A stretch of DNA of 64,000 nt. Source: Symbiotaphrina buchneri (taxonomy: Eukaryota; Ascomycota; Symbiotaphrinales; Symbiotaphrinaceae). The position numbers and the translations under genes were made by a program. The notes beneath the pieces were generated by a model. It worked only from the letters and a program-made list of their open reading frames with translations. It was not told the origin of the DNA and made no database searches. Positions 4,893-22,551 of this stretch are shown here, piece after piece (the stretch's first letter is position 1; every line of letters begins with the position of its first letter). Where the stretch lies: contig BCIG01000015.1 of the NCBI GenBank assembly GCA_001599915.1, positions 62,001 through 126,000 of the forward strand, written 5' to 3'.

Positions 4893-5486
4893 TCAAAACA
4901 CCTCATAATGCGCATCCGTCAACTTGCCGCCATTAATATCCAACAAATCCTGCGGGCACGCACTACACGCCACCACCAGATCCATCTCGGCCCTCATCTC
5001 AATAAACTCACCCGGCTTCGTCACCGGCAGCTCAAAACTGACCTTCCCATCTTTCTGCACGGGGATATTCATAAACAGATTAAACGGACTCGGCGTAAAC
5101 GGGACCTTAATCCCCTGGCTTTCCAACGCCTTCTCCAAATTCTCCGCACAGCTGGCATGCCATCCCTGCACACCTAATTCCTTGTAGCGCCACGGGTCGC
5201 AGGCGGCGATCAGCGTGTCGTGGATCCCGGGCGTCGTGTCGGATGTGATGGTCAGCATTGGTGAGCGATGGGAGGAGGTGAGGGTGTGCCCGACTTTGGG
5301 CAGGATGGTTCCGATGGAGGCGCGCGTGTGCTGCATCGACAGGTATTCGAGCGGCGAGGAGGCGCTGAAGGCGAAGAAGTCCACCACTTGGCTGCCGTGG
5401 GTGTTGATGATGCGAACGGTTTGCCCCGCGGAGACGGGGAAGGCGACGCCGGAGCGTGCAGGGATGGTGCCTTTTGCGGGGGACAT
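4893..5486 (-). CDS. DUF1989 / urea-carboxylase-associated family protein
   Basis: 197-residue single-exon protein. The frame stays open upstream to 5585, but the start used here is the ATG at 5486 (MSPAKGT), which begins the conserved domain. The core matches the DUF1989 (urea carboxylase-associated) family: a cupin-like strand region with RIINTHGSQVVDFFAF near the N terminus, TSDTTPGIHDTLIAACDP in the middle, and the C-terminal cysteine-containing segment CSACPQDLLDING. Bacterial relatives sit beside urea carboxylase; in fungi the reaction is unknown. No urea-metabolism neighbour is visible here. Intact, with no codon-level oddity seen. Confidence 0.82.
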   Translation of the reverse strand: MSPAKGTIPARSGVAFPVSAGQTVRIINTHGSQVVDFFAFSASSPLEYLSMQHTRASIGTILPKVGHTLTSSHRSPMLTITSDTTPGIHDTLIAACDPWRYKELGVQGWHASCAENLEKALESQGIKVPFTPSPFNLFMNIPVQKDGKVSFELPVTKPGEFIEMRAEMDLVVACSACPQDLLDINGGKLTDAHYEVF

Positions 5487-5975
5487 TGTACTGCAACCCT
5501 TTCTTTGCGGTGATAGCCCTTGAACCAGCGCGTCGAACCAACTCTTTTGAAGGTTTCGTGGGGACAAGATCACCAGCAAGCACACGCGGGACTCTCAGTG
5601 AGGCCGGCGCTGTTCGGTGGGGCTGAGGTTCGGCGGTCCTCGTCGGCTCGATAAGGAAACGCCGACGAGAACTGTCAACACTATGACACAGAGAATGCTA
5701 TGCTTACAACTTACATCCGAGCCCCGCAAGGTTTACTTGGTATTTGCGGTCAAAGGGGTCTGATTTACAAGGTAAGATGACTGAGTGACGGATCTTTGAG
5801 CCCCCTGCGATTGATTGAAAAGGATGTTTTGGCTGGCCGAAAGCTGCCCGGATCCAATCCACCTATCAGTATCCCAGTCATTCGGGCGTCCCATCCATAA
5901 ACATCAGAACTGACATTGCAAAACCCGAGCCTCCAATGGCCATCCGGCATCCAGGCTGCCAATCTCGAGTTTCTC
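5487..5975. other. intergenic, no supported gene
   Basis: Between the DUF1989 start and the downstream copy of the duplicated segment. A minus-strand frame covers 5765-6199, but its upstream half is the duplicated segment in a shadow frame and its tail has no recognisable features. Confidence 0.4.
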
Positions 5976-7444: not shown

Positions 7445-7745
7445 TCACCAAGATCGATCCTTCCTCCACGTCCAAATATTCATCCCAATCTTCTCACCCT
7501 CCGTAACAGGCAACCCCGCATGGAGATTATCCTCCCGCCCCCTTCCATCCATAAAGACATTCTGCCAAAAAATCGCATTCCCCTCAATCGGTTTGAACGT
7601 AATCCCATGTTCCTCAGGCTGCTCGCAATCCACGAATTCACACCAGCGGTCATCCCATCCGGGCATCAGCCGCGCATAAAAACCGAGAGATGTCGTAAGA
7701 AAGGGGACAGCCGCTCCAAGCAGCCAATTGTGCGAAAACCAAGAT
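7445..7745 (-). pseudogene. prolyl 4-hydroxylase (2OG-Fe(II) dioxygenase) 3' relic
   Basis: The minus frame reads LTTSLGFYARLMPGWDDRW, then EEHGITFKPIEGNAIFWQN, then LHAGLPVTEGEKIGMNIWTW and a stop at 7445. This is the C-terminal end of a fungal P4Hc-type prolyl 4-hydroxylase: the second iron-binding His lies in LHAGLPV, and the 2-oxoglutarate-binding basic residue in GEKIG. Nothing upstream up to 8166 supplies the rest of the catalytic domain (the HxD pair and N-terminal half are absent), and the flanking minus frames are broken. It reads as a 5'-truncated remnant. It could instead be a final exon whose upstream exons I failed to find, but the sequence upstream soon enters the 3' side of the fusion gene. 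Confidence 0.7.
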
Positions 7746-8073
7746 CGTAAGTAATAGAGATATCAGGAAACGAGGGTCGGTTCGATCCACGCTGCCGCTG
7801 CCCACAACCCCTTTGCTCCACCCCTTTTCAGGGCCGAAGTCACGTACTATCCTCAGCAAATAACCTTTATTTACACCAATAAGCTCTCCTGTCACAACCA
7901 GTAGGAGTGATGGTGCAGTGGTCTAACTGACGTGAGAAGCTATTACCCCAAACGGGGCCGAAGTAATCACTATCCGCAGTTCCCACAGATCCATTCAAAT
8001 TCTCCGAAAGCGTGATTGGGAGTTTCATCTCCTGATGTAAAACCCCCTACCCGGGGATTTTCATAGGGTGTCC

Positions 8074-8166: not shown

Positions 8167-11100
8167 CTAAATAAACTCCTTCACCGCCCTCGCAACACCG
8201 TCCACATCCTCAAAGACATGCCAATGGCCAACATCCTTCAAAATCGCGACTTTTGCATCCCTTCATCCCGCCCTTCATCATCTTGCCCACCAGCTGCGGC
8301 GGACATACTTTATCCTCGTCTCCTGTGATAATAAGAGTCGGACGCTGCACGTCTCCAACCTTCAACTCCATCTCGCTGCTTCCTGCGAGAGCGGTGCATC
8401 CTTTGGCGTAACCCTCCGGATCCTGACTCAAGAGGCTGGAATGTACGGCGCTCAGAGCAATAGGCCGCTCAGCCTTCGTTTTGCTAGACGTGCCGGCTGT
8501 ACTGACTGCGTCGGCGACGCCGGATGCACGCATGCCGCCTTTCCGAACAGCTGCTGCGCGAGCACGTTGGGCGTCTGCGGCTGCCGCGGGAAGCGGTGAA
8601 GGTGGAGGGCCAATGAGGACCAACTTCTTCACTAGTGAAGGATGCCCTAGGACGAAATTCAAAGCGATGAGACACCCCATAGAGTGTGCGACAAGCGTGG
8701 CGTTCTTGATGTTGAAAGGGGAGTGAGCAAACAAGCCAGCGAGATCTTGAGTGTAGCTCTCGATGGTGATGACAGAGGAAGCTTTGGTGGGAGTCAATCC
8801 ATGGCCTTCGAGGTCGTAGAGGTAGGCTTTATGGGAGTCGGTGAGACCAGTGGCGGATAGAAGTGGACGGTAGTATTCGGTCGATCCACCAAGACCATGA
8901 ACAAAGACGATAGGTTCACCAGATCCAATCTCCTCAACATTGATCAGTTTATTTCCAATCCGAGTCAAACCCACACCACCACAAGTGATGTCAAGGTTGT
9001 AAAAGGGAATATTGGAGATCTCTTTAACGCGATCCACCGTATAATTCTTGCTGGATGGCTCAGCGATCCGGTTACGAAGCTTTCCAAGACTGGTAACAGA
9101 TATCTCCACTGTGACATATTAGAGATCAGTCCTTCAATGCATAAGATGTACATACCAATATCTCCTGGCTTCAAAAATATAGGTGGATCTTGACCGAAGC
9201 CTACACCAGCTGGTGTTCCCGTCGCTGGCAGATGTGAGCAGAGGATCGTATATCGCGGTGGTGGAACATACCTAGGACGTCACCAGGTTGTAGAGTTGTC
9301 CCTTCAGAAAGCGTCTTGATCAGGTTGACCACAGAGAATATCAGGTCATCGGTAGTTCCGTCTTGTCTCTTTTCACCATTGACATGTGTCTGGACGCGCA
9401 GCTTCTTCGGGAGTTGACTGGCCGGAACAGCAATTGGGCCCTGAAAAGCATGAGCACAGTCGACTAGAGAGGATAAGCACATACCATGGGACAAAATGTG
9501 TCACCAGATTTCCCGATATAAAACTGCTTGTGATCACGTTGGCGTTCTCGAGCAGTGACATCTGTCATTGTCAGACAGTCTCTGCATGCGCGATTCCAAC
9601 GTACCATTGATGATAGTATACCCCCAGACATAATCCATAGCATTCTTCTCATCGATATCGAAGCCAGCTTTTCCTATAATAACCCCAATTTCACCTTCAT
9701 AATCAAGGCTCTGTGTGAACTGGGGATGAGGATAAATCTCCTCTTCGGCAGCAATGATGCTAGTGCTCCGTTTCGTGAATATCACAGGGTGAGAAGCTTG
9801 GAATATGAGTGACTGAAACAAAAACTGTAGGATCCACTCACGAAGAGCAACTTTGTCACTGGAATCATAGCCACTCTTGTGGAATTCCGCCGCATGATCG
9901 AGATAGTTCTTGCCGACACAGAGTACGTCTCTCCCACTAATTGGAGGTAACAGTCTCACTGAGTCCAGCGGGAAAGAGTCACCAGATGGCATGACATCAT
10001 TGTTCAGCTCTATCACTTCGTATAGATTGCTGAGCGGCGCTCCTGATGCCATAGCCAATTGGGTCACCATCGACTTATCCACATCTAAATGGCCAATTCG
10101 CGGCCGACCCAGAGCATCCTGGTACGCTACGAAGTTGGTGAAGCTCTCCTTTTGTCCTTGAGCCATATCCGCTTCGACTTTGACAAATTCTTTGTATGAT
10201 GCTTTGTGAATTCGGCCGTTGATTATAATAACGTTGAGCTTGTCGTGGTCTTGAAGTACGGTGATGTCGTCTAGTGGGTTGCCGTCGACAAGGATACAGT
10301 CAGCGAGAAAACCAGGCTGGATCTTGCCTAGTTCATCTTCTCGCATGAATAGCTTCGCCACGCCTGCTGTGGAAGCAACCACGGACTCCATTGGGGTGAA
10401 GTCTAACAATTTGACAAAATGTTGAAGATCCTGATCTATTATCAGCTAACAATCAACTGTCAGCGAATCATCGGATTACCCTTGCGTAAGTCCCGTGTGG
10501 AGTCCAGGCAAATCCGTAGTCTCCGCCTCTGAGAAATCTCAGTTCTCATATCGAGGTTATATGGGAAAGTGGGGCACCTACGGAAGGATGGTAATTCCCC
10601 TCTCGTGCATCTCCTTAAGCCCCTTAATGGCGATATCCAGCTCCTCTTTATATCCTACCTTTTCCGCTTGTTCAAACGAATATCCAAAGGCAGCAGCTTC
10701 GTGCAGTGTCGCATATAGCCAATGTATTCCTGGAGCAACAATATGTTTGTGCTTGTTCTTTTCAAGCATATCCATGCCCTCTTCATCAATGTAGCTGGCG
10801 TGGTAGATGACGTCAACACCATGACGGATACATTGCTTGATTGATTCGGCAGATCTGGCGTGAGAACAAAGTCTGACACCATGTCTGTGTGCTGCAGAGT
10901 GTCAACAGAAATATATTGCTGTTATGCTATAATCAACAGACCTTCATCAACGCAAGCTGCTGTCTCCTCGTCCTCATACTAGCAATCCCTCGCAGCTCTT
11001 GTCTCGGTGATCTGCTGAAGGTGAGTATATCACTGAAACAACAGCGCAAAGTGTATTACTTCTTCACCCGACATGCTCAACTTAATCTGATCCGCACCCA

Positions 11101-12051
11101 GCTTGATATGGTGTCTAATGACTTCGCGAAATTCAAGTGGACCTACGCCAGTCAGTAAGCACACAGCCGTTTTGAAGATGACATTGACCATCTGCGAAAG
11201 CACTGATTTCAGGAACGAGATCGCCTCCTCGGCGAGCAATTTCTTTGCAGTTTGCGAGATATCTGGGGCCAGGAATATCGCCCCTATTGATAGCATCTCT
11301 GACCACGATATCCAGGCGATCTTTGGCTGACGCAGCACCGAAACACCTTCTGTAAGTTAGTATCTGCTCGTACAAGTGCTGCGGTAGACTCACATGGTAT
11401 AACCGGAGTCAAGGTAGCACTGTGCCGCACGTGCAGTATGAAGTGTGTGCTCCTCAACACCGATCGCGCCAAGTTGCGCTGTCAAAGTTAGACAATGTTG
11501 TTGACCGCAACAATAAACTGACCCAAATCCGTTCCGTTCCATGTAAAATGTGTATGAGCGTCGCCCAGGCCTGACATCAACGTACGTCCACGACCTTGAA
11601 TGACACGGGCAGTGGGATCTCTCCGAAGTCGATCAATATTTGGAACGGTCCCGACATATCTGATCCGCTCGCCTGATGCTGTTTAGACTAAATCTTTCTT
11701 TCATTTCCGAATGGACTAACCTTCAATGAACACATCTCCACGATACGGGTCTGGCCCCGTGGAGTCGAGTCTGGATGCGGGTCAGATGTGCAACTGCCAG
11801 ACAATGAAATCATACATGTTGACGTCGAGGAAGAGTACTTTCGAATCGGGCTGAGTCCCTGAAAGAGCAGGAGTGAGTTCAGGTATCACATCTTCGCGAT
11901 TATATGCAGTACCCTTTATATGGTAAGGTTTCGGCTTCAGCTTTGGATCCATATGAACATCATCGTGGGCATTAGTCTTGCGTTTCGAATGCCCATTGAT
12001 TCCATTAGTATATGTTCCATTCTCACCATTGGACAAGATTCCGGGAGCCAT
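8167..12051 (-). CDS. three-domain fusion: amidohydrolase + FAH-type hydrolase + alpha/beta hydrolase (frame interrupted twice)
   Basis: Fifteen exons (5' to 3'): 12051-11816, 11770-11721, 11672-11523, 11478-11394, 11349-11189, 11142-11060, 11011-10942, 10891-10582, 10528-10480, 10430-9842, 9796-9605, 9561-9485, 9440-9272, 9224-9156, 9108-8167; about 1076 residues. Domain 1 (about 60-460) is a metal-dependent amidohydrolase with DAHTHF, lysine in DQIKLSMSG, HARS, IYHAS and GGDYGFAW. Domain 2 (about 490-775) is fumarylacetoacetate-hydrolase-like with GKNYLDHAAE, DYEGEIGVIIGKAG, NDVTARERQ and GTPAGVG. Domain 3 is an alpha/beta hydrolase with HGLGGS, AHSMG (nucleophile) and GDEDKV (acid). Domains 2 and 3 join inside the last exon without a break. 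Exon 7 has an in-frame TAG at 10981-10979 where family logic predicts Tyr. A one-base excess at 8259-8261 puts the catalytic His segment (GHWHVFEDVDG) in another frame ending at 8167. Likely a catabolic hydrolase of amide/lactone/diketone rings, perhaps decaying. Confidence 0.85.
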
Positions 12052-12547: not shown

Positions 12548-13135
12548 ATGGGCTGGATAAGAGCGAGAAATTGCAAACAGCCATCGGAAAAAATTATTGG
12601 CAATTCGGATCTCAAGGACTCAAAGGCTTCGGTGCAGCATATTGAAGATGTTGCAGTCCCGGATACCGAGAGCTTGAGATATCCTTTCCAACCCAAAGAC
12701 AGGCCAAAGGAGGCTCTGCCTTTCATACCTGCCGAGGATGTTCAGAGTAGCAAGGACGACTCTTCTAACAGGATATGTAAGTTTGGTCCTCCATCATCGA
12801 TTCTACTGCTCGATGGGTCGGCTGAAAGTTCGAAGGGATCGTGATAGATGACATTGTGTACGACTGCACAGCTTGGATAGACGAACATCCTGGCGGAGAG
12901 GCTGTTATCAAGACTTTTGCTGGTCAGGATTGTTCTTGTATGTCTGCTAATCTTCTGACACTCCTGAGCTGACTAGAAGTCTACCTCAGGGCAATTCTGG
13001 CGGTTCCATGGTAAGCTGGATATGGAAGCATACGGTCTTCCACTGCGGATTGGACGAACAAAGGGAGTAACGAACAAATACCCCGAACAGAAACGATTCG
13101 TTGGTCTGAGAACAGTCGAGGCTGAAGATTGGTAG
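12548..13135 (+). CDS. cytochrome b5-like heme-binding protein
   Basis: Three exons: 12548-12776, 12836-12937 and 12990-13135, giving 158 residues. The start ATG at 12548 (AAAATGGGCTGG) begins MGW, has a good context and leads straight into the usual variable N-terminal arm. The domain reads PFIPAEDV, then WIVIDDIVYDCTAWIDEHPGG (first heme-ligand His in HPGG) across the first splice joint, then AVIKTFAGQDCSWQFWRFHG (second heme ligand His in FWRFH), ending LRIGRTKGV..KRFVGLRTVEAEDW. No membrane anchor, so a soluble electron-transfer protein. It diverges from the fusion hydrolase gene, with about 500 bases between the starts. An upstream ATG at 12437 lies in the same frame and would lengthen the N terminus; I prefer 12548. 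Confidence 0.85.
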
Positions 13136-14193
13136 GACCAGAAGGAGACTGAAAGTCGGGAAAAAAAGACATCAACATTGTGATGGAGTTTCCTCCATTG
13201 TCGTTGCCCGCCTACATTGCCCTTTCCATATGCCACGAAGTAGACATAGATAACAAAACAAGAGACTTTTCTGCTGCCCACCAATGGCCTGGCCGTGGTG
13301 GTGCGTCCTGTCGTTTTCATTCTCTCACTTTCCTTACCTGTAAAAGCTCTGGGAGCTTTTCGTAGGTGCCTGGCGACGGCCAGGCACTGAGCTTTTGCAC
13401 CTGCTTATCAACGGAACTAAGTCGTCGGTTCAACTCCTTGCGCTGCCGCTAAGTTTCGATTAGTCATTTCATTTTCTGGAGGCAGTCATAGATGTATGTG
13501 ATTGCAGATATGACCATGGTGTCCTGCGCTGGAGATTGTGTAGCTTTGTGCAAGCCGATGATTCGCTTATCTTATCCACTCGTAGCGTTTCTCCCTAAAA
13601 TCACTTGCTTTGCTGTCTCGCTTGGAAATCGCGTGGTTGGCGTTCCCGCTAATCAATCAACCATCCGATCCCGCAAGCTTTAGCGCTGCCAACCTAAACC
13701 TTGGAACAAACACCGAGCGTCATCCCCAGCCTCCGCATTTCTGTCCCTTCGATTTCCGGGAAATTCTCTGCGCATCTCTGTCCTTTATCCTCTTAAGTCA
13801 GAAATACATTCTTGCGATAGCTTCCATTCCTGTGAAAGAAGAATCAACTCTGAGCTTTTGCGAAGATCGGTGAGTGCGACTATTCCTGAAAGTACCTTAA
13901 GCTGGGTGCTGACAGCAAACGATAAGCAGGTTATCGCCGAGCTCTTTTTGGGCCAGAACCATAGCCATCACACACAACGTCCCCGGGACTTCCTGCGCCG
14001 CCGACCAACTTTCAGATGCAAAGCATACTACGAATATTGGAATAACAGTACAACAAGTCAATCCACGACATACCGGCATATCCCCTCGTTATCTGGTAGC
14101 TTCGGCGCAGCTCAATATCCCGATACCTATCTCTCCGCAGCTCAGCACTCACCCACCAGCGGACACGCAAATACCAACCACCGAACCGCCAAA
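13136..14193. other. 1-kb intergenic stretch with nested hairpins
   Basis: No protein-coding frame here looks real; the one that joins the MARVEL gene has no ATG or family sequence upstream of 14194. The stretch holds the structured element at 13342-13396 and pyrimidine-rich sequence leading to the MARVEL gene, probably a long 5' UTR or promoter. Confidence 0.45.
13342..13396. repeat. nested, partly exclusive inverted repeats
   Basis: AAAAGCTC (13342-13349) can pair with GAGCTTTT at 13353-13360 (3-nt loop) or with a second identical GAGCTTTT at 13389-13396. Between the two copies sits another hairpin, GTGCCTGGC (13366-13374), loop GACG, GCCAGGCAC (13379-13387). So one arm has two alternative partners, and in one arrangement encloses a stable stem. 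Purpose unknown: cytochrome b5 3' processing, a structured 5' UTR of the MARVEL gene, or a small RNA. Confidence 0.55.
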
Positions 14194-17249: not shown

Positions 17250-17622
17250 GGTACTGACATCGCTGAGCCGTAGATGCTAGATGCTACCACGTCGCATCGT
17301 GAAGTTGGTCGCGGTTGCAAAGATGGTCTGTTACGGTCAACCATACATAATTGCGCTTTGGGTCTTTACCAGCTGGCCGTACATGATCGACGTGTCGGAT
17401 GCCGAGGCACGTTATGCGCCGTCCGTTATCGTTCGGTCCCGCTCATTCGTCACCAGCTCTTAGCTTTCTTTGTCCATAGTGTTCTTATAGATGGCAGAAA
17501 TACTGCTTGTACATACTCATCGATGAGGAGAACCGTTTGAGTCTATCTGGACCACATCAGCCCCTGCACATTACGTTGAATCCGTGCTGGCTAAGCTGAA
17601 GGGTCTCAGCGCAAAGCCCAAC
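17250..17622. other. shared divergent promoter region
   Basis: 370 bases between the PIG-S and acyl-CoA synthetase starts; it must carry both promoters. No specific element identified. Confidence 0.5.
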
Positions 17623-19716
17623 ATGAACAGTAGCTATGCCGTCATCCCGGATCTTCTCTCCTCCACGCTAATTACGATGATAGTATCACCTGCATTGCTC
17701 GTGCCTGCAGCTGCAGCATCCCTAGCATACCTCAATGCTAAAACCGCCTTCTTCTACGACTGGAACCAATTGACCGCCCTCCTCTCAGCTATTGTCCAGC
17801 GAAACATTCGACTGAGGCACGATAAACTCAATGTCTTTTACGGGCTTGAGGAACATGCGCTCTCAACGAAAACCTCCAACAATATCTTTCTCGTCTTTCA
17901 AGGGCGCGAGTGGACATACAAGGAAGCATACGAGACTGTGTTAAAATACGGACAATGGTTAAAGACATTCTACGGTGTCAAGAAAGGGGATATTGTTGCT
18001 ATGGATTTTATGAACTTGGATAAGTTCATATTTATATTCATGGGACTATGGAGTATTGGTGCAAATCCAGCTTTCATAAACTATAATCTGACGGGGAAGC
18101 CCTTGCTTCATTGTCTCAAGCTGTCCAGGGCGAATCTGCTTCTGGTGGATGAGGAGATAAAGTCTGTGATATCTGAAGATGTCATGGTGGAACTCACGTC
18201 GGATCGTGTTCGGCAAGGATCAGGTCGACCAATGCAAATCGTATATGTCGATTCGAAGGAGGAACAGAAGATCATGAACCTCTCACCGATTCGTGAGCCT
18301 AACGAATGTCGAAATGGGGCTAAATTACCAGACATGGCCGCATTGATATATACCAGTGGTACCACGGGCTTACCGAAAGCAGCTGTCATCAGTTGGGACA
18401 AATGTTTCAAGGCCGGAGGTTTCGTAGCAAACTGGCTCGGTATCAAGACCACTGACCGTTACTACACAGTATGTAATTATATCCCCCACTTTGACCTCAG
18501 ACTTATCTGTTCTAGGCCATGCCACTTTACCATGCAACTGCTTTCCTCCTTGCTTTCAACACCACCGTCTACAGAGGCAATACGCTGGTCATTGGACATA
18601 AATTCTCTAATCGAACCTTCTGGCAAGAGGTTCGGGCCACGGATTCCACCATTATTCAGTATGTCGGTGAGACATGCCGCTACCTTCTTACGGCACCACC
18701 TCAGATCGATCCTACAACCGGTGAAAACCTTGACCGGAAAAACAAGGTGCGCATGGCCATGGGTAATGGTCTTCGACCCGATATCTGGAATCGATTCAAG
18801 GAACGTTTCGGTATAGATGCCATTGTGGAGTTCTATGGCTCCACAGAAGGCCATTCGATGATGGGAAATATATCCCGGAATGAATTCACACGCGGTGCTA
18901 TCGGGCGTAATGGACTACTGGCGAGACTAGTATATGGCAGGAATCTCACGCTGGTGGCAGTGGACTGGGAAACGGAGATGCCATGGCGAGATCCAAAGAC
19001 CGGCTTCTGCAAAGCTGTCAGACATGGCGATCCCGGTGAATTGTTATACACACTCGAGCCGAAAGACATCAAGGCGAAATTCCAGGGGTACTTTGGCAAC
19101 CAGTCGGCAACAGAAAGCAAGATCCTAAGGGACGTTTTCAAGAAGGGAGACGCGTATATGCGAACAGGAGATGTTGTGCGTTGGGATCGTGAAGGAAGAT
19201 GGTACTTTAGCGACCGTATTGGAGACACCTACCGATGGAAATCAGAAAATGTCTCGACAAGTGTGAGTTGTGTCCATCAACCTCTCAATGTTGTATCATG
19301 CACTTACCGCTCTACAGGAAGTAGCCGAAGCTCTCGGCACACACCCCGCCATCGCCGAAGCCAACGTCTACGGCGTCTCCCTACCGCATCACGAAGGTCG
19401 CGCCGGCTGCGCCTGCATTGTCCTCAACCCTTCTGCCGGCAGTCTATCTTCGGACTTGCTACAATCTCTCGCTTCCCATGCCCAATCCCATCTTTCCAAA
19501 TACGCAGTCCCGCTCTTCATCCGGGTAACCACAAACATGACGACGACGGGCACGAACAAGCAGCAGAAACATACCCTACGGGCGGAAGGAGTGGATCCGA
19601 AGGTCGTGGGGAAGTCCGGAGATAAGGTCTACTGGTTGAGGCCGGGAAGTGGAGCATATGAGCCTTTTGGAGAGAAAGAGTGGGAGGTTATTAGTCAGGG
19701 AAAGGCGAAGTTATAG
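17623..19716 (+). CDS. FAT1: FAT1-like very-long-chain acyl-CoA synthetase / fatty acid transporter
   Basis: Exons 17623-18468, 18516-19262 and 19318-19716; 663 residues from ATG MNSSYAV. Activates long and very long fatty acids to CoA thioesters and, in the FATP family, couples this to uptake. Evidence: an N-terminal membrane segment (residues about 14-38), the AMP-binding P-loop YTSGTTGLPKAAVISW, the LYHATA segment after intron 1, FYGSTEG, and the FATP/VLACS signature YMRTGDVVRWDREGRWYFSD followed by RIGDTYRWKSENVS. The C-terminal domain ends with VPLFIRV and a TGTNKQQK loop typical of Fat1. Introns are 47 and 55 nt, all in phase 0. The frame extends upstream only through GTG codons, not ATG. 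Paralogues in peroxisome or ER exist in fungi, so location is uncertain. Confidence 0.92.
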
Positions 19717-20682: not shown

Positions 20683-22551
20683 TTAAGCAGTAGCATGCTC
20701 CTTCTCATTCAAATGATGCGTCTTGGACTCATACTTTTGGTCCGCAACACCATGCTCATCACCCTGGACCAGACGGCGGAGACCAATATCATGCGTGACC
20801 TGTTCGAAGCGGATGCGGTCTGCCTCAGCGGTTCCGGGGGAGCCGAAGACGATATCCATCTCCTCGAGGGTGAGACGCTTGGTCTCAGGGACGAAGAAGT
20901 AGATGAACGCCGCGCCGATGAAGGTCAAAATACCGAAGAAGATGAAGGTGCCGTAGGTCATGCCCGTCAACATGTCCGGCGTGACTTGGCCGACGATGAA
21001 GTTGTTCATCCAGTTGCTTGATGCGCCCAGAGCGATACCGTATGGACGTTGAGACAAGGGCCAGATCTCGGCGACGATGATCCACGCGCAGGGGCCCCAG
21101 GAGTAGCCGAAGTGCGCGACGAACACCCAGACCATGGCCACGGCGGCCCAGCCGGCGGCTTTGTGAGTGGGCCATTGGTTCTGGTTCTTGGCGAAGATGA
21201 CCGCGATGATGATGTGGCAGGTGGCCATGCCGATGGCACCGGCGATCAGGACGGGCTTACGACCGAGTTTGTCGACGTACATGACAGCCGGGATGGTGAA
21301 GATGAACATGACTAGGTAGTGTTAGTTGAATCTACCGGCAAGGGCGCTGATGTACTTACCGATACCGACGACACCAGTTGCCAAAAGGGAGGTGGTGTTG
21401 CTCGACAGACCGAGGGATGAAAAGATTGATGGAGCATAGTACAAGACTGCGTTGATACCGGTCCACTGTTGGAAGAACATGGTGACTGTAGCGACCATGA
21501 CACGGCGGAACATGGGCATTGTCTTGAACAGAGATCCGATGGCAACAAATTGAAGTTTGACGGTGTTGGCAAAGGTCAATTCCTGAAGATGGGGGAAGTT
21601 CTCGGCAACGGTACGCTTCTCCCAGACGGACTGCGCCTTGATTTCGAGGAACTCGATCTCAAGGAGTTCATGGTCGGGTGACAAGCCACGGAGGTTTGCA
21701 AGGACACGGCGTGCTTCATCCTCACGGTTATGGTGGATTAACCAACGTGGAGAGAAAGGCATGAACGCCATACCGGCTCCCAAGATCAAAGCGGGAGCGA
21801 GTTGAAGGCAGAGGGGAACGAGCCATGCAGCTTCGGACTGGCTGTCACCAGTACCGCCGATGTAGTTGGTGCCATAATCAATCCAGAAGGAGACAAGGAT
21901 ACCGAGGGTAATGGCCAATTGCTGAAGAGCCACCAAGGATCCACGGACCTCAGGAGGAGCGACTTCGGCGTTGTACATGGGCACAACCATGGACAGCGAA
22001 CCGACACCCATACCTTTAGATCGTCAGATGGCGGTAGTATGAGGAGTCAACAAGGACTTACCGGTGATAAACCGGCCACCAAGAATGCAACTATGACCAC
22101 CAGCCGTTGCAGTACACTGAATGATGACACCGATGATGAAGACAGCAACATTGATGAGGATGGTGTACTTCCGGGAGAGATATTCGGCGAGGAAACCAGA
22201 GTACAAGGTACCGACCCAAGCACCCAACTCAAGGATGGAGGTGAGCCAACCCTTAAGACTTCCGTGGGCGCCACTGGGATCATCCCATTCTCCCATATCT
22301 GGTCGAGGTCAATACAAGGACCACAGAAGGCTCAAGCAAAACTTACGGTGCTGGAAGCTGCGCATGGTCAAAACACCAGAGAAGACACCCTGGTTGTAAC
22401 CATATAGCAGACCACCCAAACAAGCGAAACAAGCAATGAAGAACACTTTGGCATTCTTCACAAGAGCAGCCGGACCAGAGCTGCCCATGAGAGCTTGACG
22501 CTTGGCCAAGGCGGCAGACTCGAAAGCCGCAGAATCACCGACGGGAGCCAT
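20683..22551 (-). CDS. MFS sugar transporter (hexose transporter family)
   Basis: Four exons, 22551-22347, 22298-22062, 22013-21360 and 21311-20683; 574 residues from ATG MAPVGDS. Family markers in order: LLYGYNQGVFSGVL (first helix of fungal sugar porters), GRFITGMGVGSLSMVVPMYNAEVAPPEVRG (shown across an intron; the PMYNAEVAPPEVRG part is the PESPR-like sugar signature), SPRWLIHHNREDEARRVLA, QQWTGINAVLYYAP, DKLGRKPVL and the C-terminal VPETKRLTLEEMD. Twelve membrane helices are expected. It imports monosaccharides by proton symport or facilitated diffusion; specificity cannot be fixed, though the GYNQGVFSG helix is typical of high-affinity hexose carriers. Introns are 46-49 nt. No defects seen. 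Confidence 0.93.

Follow-up and report, generated by a model that had tools for sequence, protein, structure and literature searches.

A 64,000-nucleotide stretch of the genome of the ascomycete Symbiotaphrina buchneri (assembly GCA_001599915.1, contig BCIG01000015.1, positions 62,001 to 126,000 of the forward strand; hereafter, the window) carries a gene that joins an amidohydrolase, a fumarylacetoacetate hydrolase (FAH)-family domain, and an alpha/beta hydrolase on one chain. Our joint reading, which we hold to be probable, is that this gene is a fungal single-chain version of a bacterial catabolic operon, that its domains would carry out three successive steps, and that the copy found here is interrupted twice. 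The three domains are closely similar to the products of operon genes on bacterial plasmids, and thus the window gene appears to be the single-chain form of that catabolic module.

In the splice model, the gene reads on the minus strand from an ATG at 12051 to its end at 8167, giving 1,077 codon positions (Table 1). All 14 introns are of the GT-AG type and 43 to 53 nucleotides (nt) long, with phases that are consistent at every exon joint. The conceptual amidohydrolase piece matched the Pfam profile Amidohydro_1 (PF01979) at 63.3 bits against a cutoff of 25, the FAH piece matched FAA_hydrolase (PF01557) at 231.3 bits (cutoff, 23.9), and the open reading frame (ORF) of the last exon matched Abhydrolase_1 (PF00561) at 74.7 bits (cutoff, 25.8). 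The motifs quoted in an initial annotation of this DNA (DAHTHF, HARS, and GGDYGFAW; GKNYLDHAAE and GTPAGVG; AHSMG and GDEDKV) were found in the gene. The nearest bacterial relatives are separate neighboring genes, as would be expected if the splice model had run adjacent genes together. This account is extremely unlikely, given that each interdomain linker lies within a single uninterrupted exon and that no stop codon separates the domains. Both linkers fall inside unbroken exons (10 and 15) and therefore belong to one gene in the sequence; the three-domain fusion is genuine at that level. The same argument had been made in the initial annotation for the FAH-hydrolase linker, and exon 15 is indeed unbroken across it.

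Among the candidates scored, the genome contained no close second copy: the next best amidohydrolase stretch matched almost the full query at 31% identity, and two short partial stretches were 38% and 47% identical. The genome holds further FAH genes besides the fusion. A scan of genome contigs yielded a single locus that matched over a short length, and the amidohydrolases of that genome were distant (best, 32% identity).

To find bacterial relatives, we searched 72,556 plasmid records with the amidohydrolase piece using tblastn. Three hundred five records matched, and the best 20, which were listed, ranged from 59.8% down to 39.7% identity. The same plasmid search with a Caballeronia relative as the query matched 337 records, the best 60 of which were listed. 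Nineteen amidohydrolase neighborhoods, chosen to span the ranking, were examined, five from the search with the fungal query and fourteen from that with the Caballeronia relative. FAH and alpha/beta hydrolase genes were both located within 5 kb in all nine loci whose amidohydrolase was at least 45% identical to the fungal domain (L010 to L014, L023 to L025, and L031), in two of six loci at 36 to 42% (L029 and L030; not L026, L027, and L033), and in two of four loci below 34% (L034 and L035). In L028, of the middle tier, both genes lay some 7 to 8 kb downstream; in the lowest tier, L032 had an FAH-type gene only and L036 had neither. Because the plasmid collection is incompletely annotated, absences are weaker evidence than presences.

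The operon was found in plasmids of Actinomycetota, Bacillota, and Pseudomonadota. In the 11 loci of the top two identity tiers, the gene order was FAH, alpha/beta hydrolase, and amidohydrolase, with the FAH gene of L030 on the opposite strand. The FAH and alpha/beta hydrolase genes overlapped or were at most 50 nt apart in nine of the ten operons measured, the exception being L029; L030 was left out of this measure because of its FAH strand. The amidohydrolase domain of the window gene is 58% identical to that of Corynebacterium occultum, 47 to 52% identical to those of eight more operon members, and 39 to 40% identical to those of L029 and L030, whereas identities to the same 11 operons are 39 to 51% for the FAH domain and 32 to 39% for the alpha/beta hydrolase domain. 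Operons of this type, such as those of C. occultum pCOCCU and Cupriavidus metallidurans pMOL30, have the same three domains as the fusion, with the catalytic, GGDYG, and GHW motifs, and showed the highest similarity in the plasmid collection among the matches listed. Unlike the fusion, the operons consist of separate genes, with a GntR/FadR/FCD-type regulator annotated nearby in 10 of the 11 loci (not in L013). In the Azospirillum argentinense operon (L011), a DUF1636 gene (9343-9738) lies between the alpha/beta hydrolase and amidohydrolase genes.

The alpha/beta hydrolase piece, searched alone, matched 227 plasmid records, 50 of which were listed, ranked by coverage times identity. All 18 listed records scoring at least 89 bits had a close amidohydrolase relative no more than 1 kb from the match, and these comprised 18 of the 20 listed amidohydrolase records. 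The two exceptions were Rhodococcus opacus and Massilia putida, with an IS5-type transposase gene adjoining the amidohydrolase in M. putida. The next best listed match, in Sinorhizobium americanum, scored 77 bits, and many of the remainder were annotated as pcaD. Given the ranking used, a stronger short match is possible among the 177 unlisted records. The FAH piece matched 1,091 records, and the first of the 50 listed was the Corynebacterium operon gene. The claim of the initial annotation that one gene carries three domains serving one pathway is well supported, both by the 18 of 20 amidohydrolase records with the best alpha/beta hydrolase match within 1 kb and by the presence of FAH beside the other two genes in all 11 of those loci examined. 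On the amidohydrolase tree, the fungal and Corynebacterium sequences are sisters (support, 99/97).

The catalytic motifs were compared with those of solved and operon-encoded relatives. The six metal ligands of the amidohydrolase, which we take to be HxH, Lys, His, His, and Asp and placed by alignment, are all kept in the 21 amidohydrolases compared (the window protein and 20 relatives). GGDYG, located where three solved amidohydrolase relatives have GTDxG, is present in the window and in 11 of 11 operon amidohydrolases. The FAH domain retains its His, Glu-x-Glu, Asp, and Lys residues. The structure closest to it is the FAH-family protein 8sky (235 bits), and 5-oxopent-3-ene-1,2,5-tricarboxylate decarboxylase (6iym) matches at 213 bits, but both are stand-alone proteins whose substrate is not transferable. 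The best solved relative of the alpha/beta hydrolase domain is PcaD, 3-oxoadipate enol-lactonase (2xua, 48 bits). Equivalog (NCBIfam) profiles were scored on the bacterial relatives in L010 and L012 rather than on the window protein. Their FAH proteins scored, respectively, 153.1 and 180.5 bits for TIGR02303 (HpaG C-terminal subunit; cutoff, 276.4) and 183.6 and 169.1 bits for NF053535 (2,4-didehydro-3-deoxy-L-rhamnonate hydrolase; cutoff, 500), and their alpha/beta hydrolases scored 148.9 and 138.2 bits for TIGR02427 (PcaD; cutoff, 255.85), all below the cutoffs. No pcaD-type neighbors were seen in the 11 loci viewed, save for carboxymuconolactone-decarboxylase-family genes in L014 and L023.

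Several observations weigh against a fused operon. The similarity of the FAH domain is unspecific, with 15 of its 50 listed matches found at such operons, and none of four other FAH neighborhoods had an annotated amidohydrolase within 6 kb. The order differs, since the amidohydrolase comes first in the fusion and last in the operons. The operon arrangement does not form one clade on the amidohydrolase tree, where it requires three changes, and the FAH and alpha/beta hydrolase trees give the fungal domain no supported placement (before tree building, L028 was dropped from both sets and L034 from the alpha/beta hydrolase set because they barely aligned). Finally, GGDYG also occurs in four of the nine other amidohydrolases aligned (L027, L028, L032, and L034).

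Two lesions interrupt the gene. The in-frame TAG in exon 7 interrupts a segment that bacterial relatives share (ITETRAARDC*Y in the window, VTGTRSAEDTYI in Corynebacterium). To skip the TAG by means of a downstream acceptor, the intron would have to be some 81 nt long, against 43 to 53 nt in the other 13, and the conserved segment would be removed. In exon 15, the frame carrying the alpha/beta hydrolase stops at 8210-8212, and a frame change near 8250 precedes the catalytic histidine of the GHW motif. GHW was found in all 11 operon alpha/beta hydrolases, in none of five others compared, and, out of frame, in the window tail, which therefore belongs to the alpha/beta hydrolase domain. The Ser-acid-His triad does not stand in one open frame: Ser and the acid are present, with GHW in another frame. 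Apart from this displaced motif, the catalytic residues are kept. The 15 exons with agreeing phases described in the initial annotation hold at the splice joints but not as an open frame, and its account of the gene omits both lesions.

The presence of two lesions suggests a pseudogene. In the copy in this assembly, which is interrupted twice, a full-length protein is probably not made, and function would be lost. Sequencing or assembly errors at both sites, with an intact gene beneath, are a possible but doubtful alternative. The coding sequence of about 3.2 kb has just two lesions, and all 28 splice sites are retained, as are the other catalytic residues inspected, in line with such errors. 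Against them, nearby conserved ORFs (PIG-S, UbiA type, diphthamide synthesis, DUF1989, and RPN2 C-terminal domain) are unbroken within their Pfam matches, and the split ORFs of an AMP-binding enzyme (17527-19625) and a sugar transporter (20683-22023) read as ordinary introns, not as a noisy assembly. The intact ORFs nearby are too few to decide between a pseudogene and an assembly error.

Table 1. Features of the fusion gene and its surroundings (window coordinates)
Feature	Position	Strand	Details
Whole three-domain gene	8167..12051	minus	Splice model with 15 exons and 14 introns
Amidohydrolase domain	10167..11841	minus	Residues 71-486, exons 1-10; HxH, K, H, H, D metal ligands; GGDYGF variant
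FAH domain	9053..10166	minus	Residues 487-782, exons 10-15; His, EGE, Asp, Lys, and GTP motifs
Alpha/beta hydrolase domain	8167..9052	minus	From residue 783, exon 15; nucleophile AHSMG, acid GDED; GHW only in other frame
Exon 10	9842..10430	minus	Splice model; holds the unbroken amidohydrolase-FAH linker
Exon 15	8167..9108	minus	Splice model; holds the unbroken FAH-alpha/beta hydrolase linker
In-frame TAG	10979..10981	minus	Splice model; codon 266, exon 7
C-terminal stretch with GHW motif	8167..8250	minus	Frame differs from rest of exon 15
DUF1989 gene	4893-5594	minus	About 2.6 kb past the 3' end of the fusion gene
Short ORF	7445-7762	minus	No Pfam match at E 0.001
Divergent upstream gene	12740-13140	plus	HPGG motif

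The most likely function of the fusion is a series of three successive steps, FAH last, that would convert a cyclic substrate to a pyruvate-type product. The amidohydrolase domain would most likely open or trim a small cyclic or amide/lactone substrate at its metal site. The PcaD-like Ser-His-Asp hydrolase would then cut the ester, enol-lactone, or N-acyl product so formed. The FAH domain would act last, cleaving an acylpyruvate or beta-keto acid to give pyruvate or oxaloacetate-type products. The fusion would hold the three enzymes at equal dose and near one another. We infer the substrate class, the order of the steps, and the benefit of fusion; this order is proposed because of the families and the sequence of steps in the partly consulted account of the kpi pathway (PMC7356986).

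The initial annotation knew of no described pathway that uses this trio. The kpi pathway for 4-hydroxypyridine, in the sections of its description considered here, does use the same families (PMC7356986). In the kpi cluster of Arthrobacter sp. IN13, the Amidohydrolase_1 protein and the alpha/beta hydrolase are described as acting one after the other in 4-hydroxypyridine degradation, with an FAH protein proposed to follow. In cell-free extract, KpiC (475 amino acids [aa]) turned 3,4-dihydroxypyridine into a compound heavier by 32 Da, i.e., with two oxygen atoms added, and addition of the alpha/beta hydrolase KpiB to the KpiC reaction gave a compound consistent with 3-formylpyruvate. The FAH-family protein KpiD was proposed to catalyze the final step, although its expression failed (PMC7356986). 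KpiC, KpiB, and KpiD belong to the three families of the fusion, and the kpi regulator KpiR1 is of the FadR family, with GntR/FadR/FCD regulators also present at the bacterial operons. However, KpiC adds two oxygen atoms, the kpi cluster contains a flavin monooxygenase, and the likeness, drawn from the description, is at the family level (PMC7356986). The initial annotation had also envisaged channeling of one substrate through three hydrolytic cleavages, and both ideas stay inferred; the amidohydrolase-family step of the kpi pathway, as described in those sections, adds two oxygens (PMC7356986).

The shared families and the FadR-type regulator support a KpiC-like amidohydrolase domain, i.e., an O2-using ring opener in a chain that breaks down a hydroxylated pyridine or pyrone in the manner of the kpi pathway (PMC7356986, as far as consulted). 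Similar support comes from Rhodococcus rhodochrous BX2, in which a plasmid locus (L035, 6983-12243) encodes, behind a GntR gene, an amidohydrolase (477 aa), an HpaB-type monooxygenase, an alpha/beta hydrolase, RidA, and FAH; this set resembles the kpi set with a different hydroxylase. We nevertheless consider such a function unlikely. The R. rhodochrous amidohydrolase is only 29% identical to the fungal domain and has GTDSG, not GGDYG. No annotated aromatic-ring hydroxylase or ring-cleaving oxygenase was present in the stretches viewed around the 11 three-gene loci, and a directly attackable substrate is therefore favored. The genes nearest to an oxygenase at these loci encode a multicopper oxidase (L012) and a pirin-family protein (L029), some relatives of which are dioxygenases. 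A Novosphingobium cluster with a GGDYG amidohydrolase also contains a VOC-family gene, and it may thus be the VOC protein that cleaves the ring there. Two sphingomonad plasmids (L034, 5998-11855; L032, 5992-10854) combine a GGDYG amidohydrolase with an mhpA-type hydroxylase and an FAH-type gene, to which L034 adds a VOC protein and an alpha/beta hydrolase; these sets are apparent aromatic meta-cleavage clusters that include an amidohydrolase. It is quite unlikely that a whole pathway from ring opening to pyruvate stands on the fungal polypeptide, with the amidohydrolase-fold domain opening a hydroxylated pyridone or pyrone, followed by a deformylase/lactonase and then FAH. Ring opening in such a pathway would possibly use O2, as the consulted sections report for KpiC (PMC7356986).

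The best solved relatives of the amidohydrolase domain are an arginine carboxypeptidase (3be7) and an Xaa-Pro dipeptidase (2qs8), and ochratoxinase (4c5y) matches too. These matches speak for a dipeptidase/carboxypeptidase or an ochratoxinase-like enzyme with the other two domains as unrelated passengers, which we regard as very unlikely. The relatives in L010 and L012 score 207.7 and 226.1 bits against the Xaa-Pro dipeptidase equivalog cutoff of 500 (NF051886), and the operon linkage binds the domains together.

Thirty window ORFs (28 of the 60 ORFs of at least 150 aa, plus 2 shorter ones) were scanned with Pfam. No local catabolic cluster was evident among them, and no ring hydroxylase gene was found, though genes broken by introns may be missed. 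The DUF1989 gene is presumably of the urea-carboxylase-associated type. By eye, the short ORF past the 3' end resembles what we take to be the C-terminal part of a prolyl-4-hydroxylase-type oxygenase, and the divergent upstream gene resembles, presumably, a cytochrome b5 domain on account of its HPGG motif.

In the openly licensed PMC literature, judged from titles and the starts of abstracts, we found neither this fusion nor the bacterial operon described, nor a function assigned to the operon, which is weak evidence. Three candidates were set aside. The consulted parts of a report on riboflavin catabolism contain an unassigned FAH protein (LumV) and several hydrolases but no matching trio (PMC12746152). 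In the excerpts on the Fusarium lactam response, amidohydrolase and FAH-family genes are separate entries (PMC10512309), and in those on Aspergillus salicylate metabolism there is an amidohydrolase gene, with FAH appearing only within a reference title (PMC7842363).

A natural fusion reveals enzymes that work together, and this one ties a bacterial plasmid operon to one pathway. The fusion suggests that three successive activities could be assayed on the single protein that an intact relative would represent. S. buchneri would also be a eukaryote with enzymes on one chain that bacteria keep as an operon.

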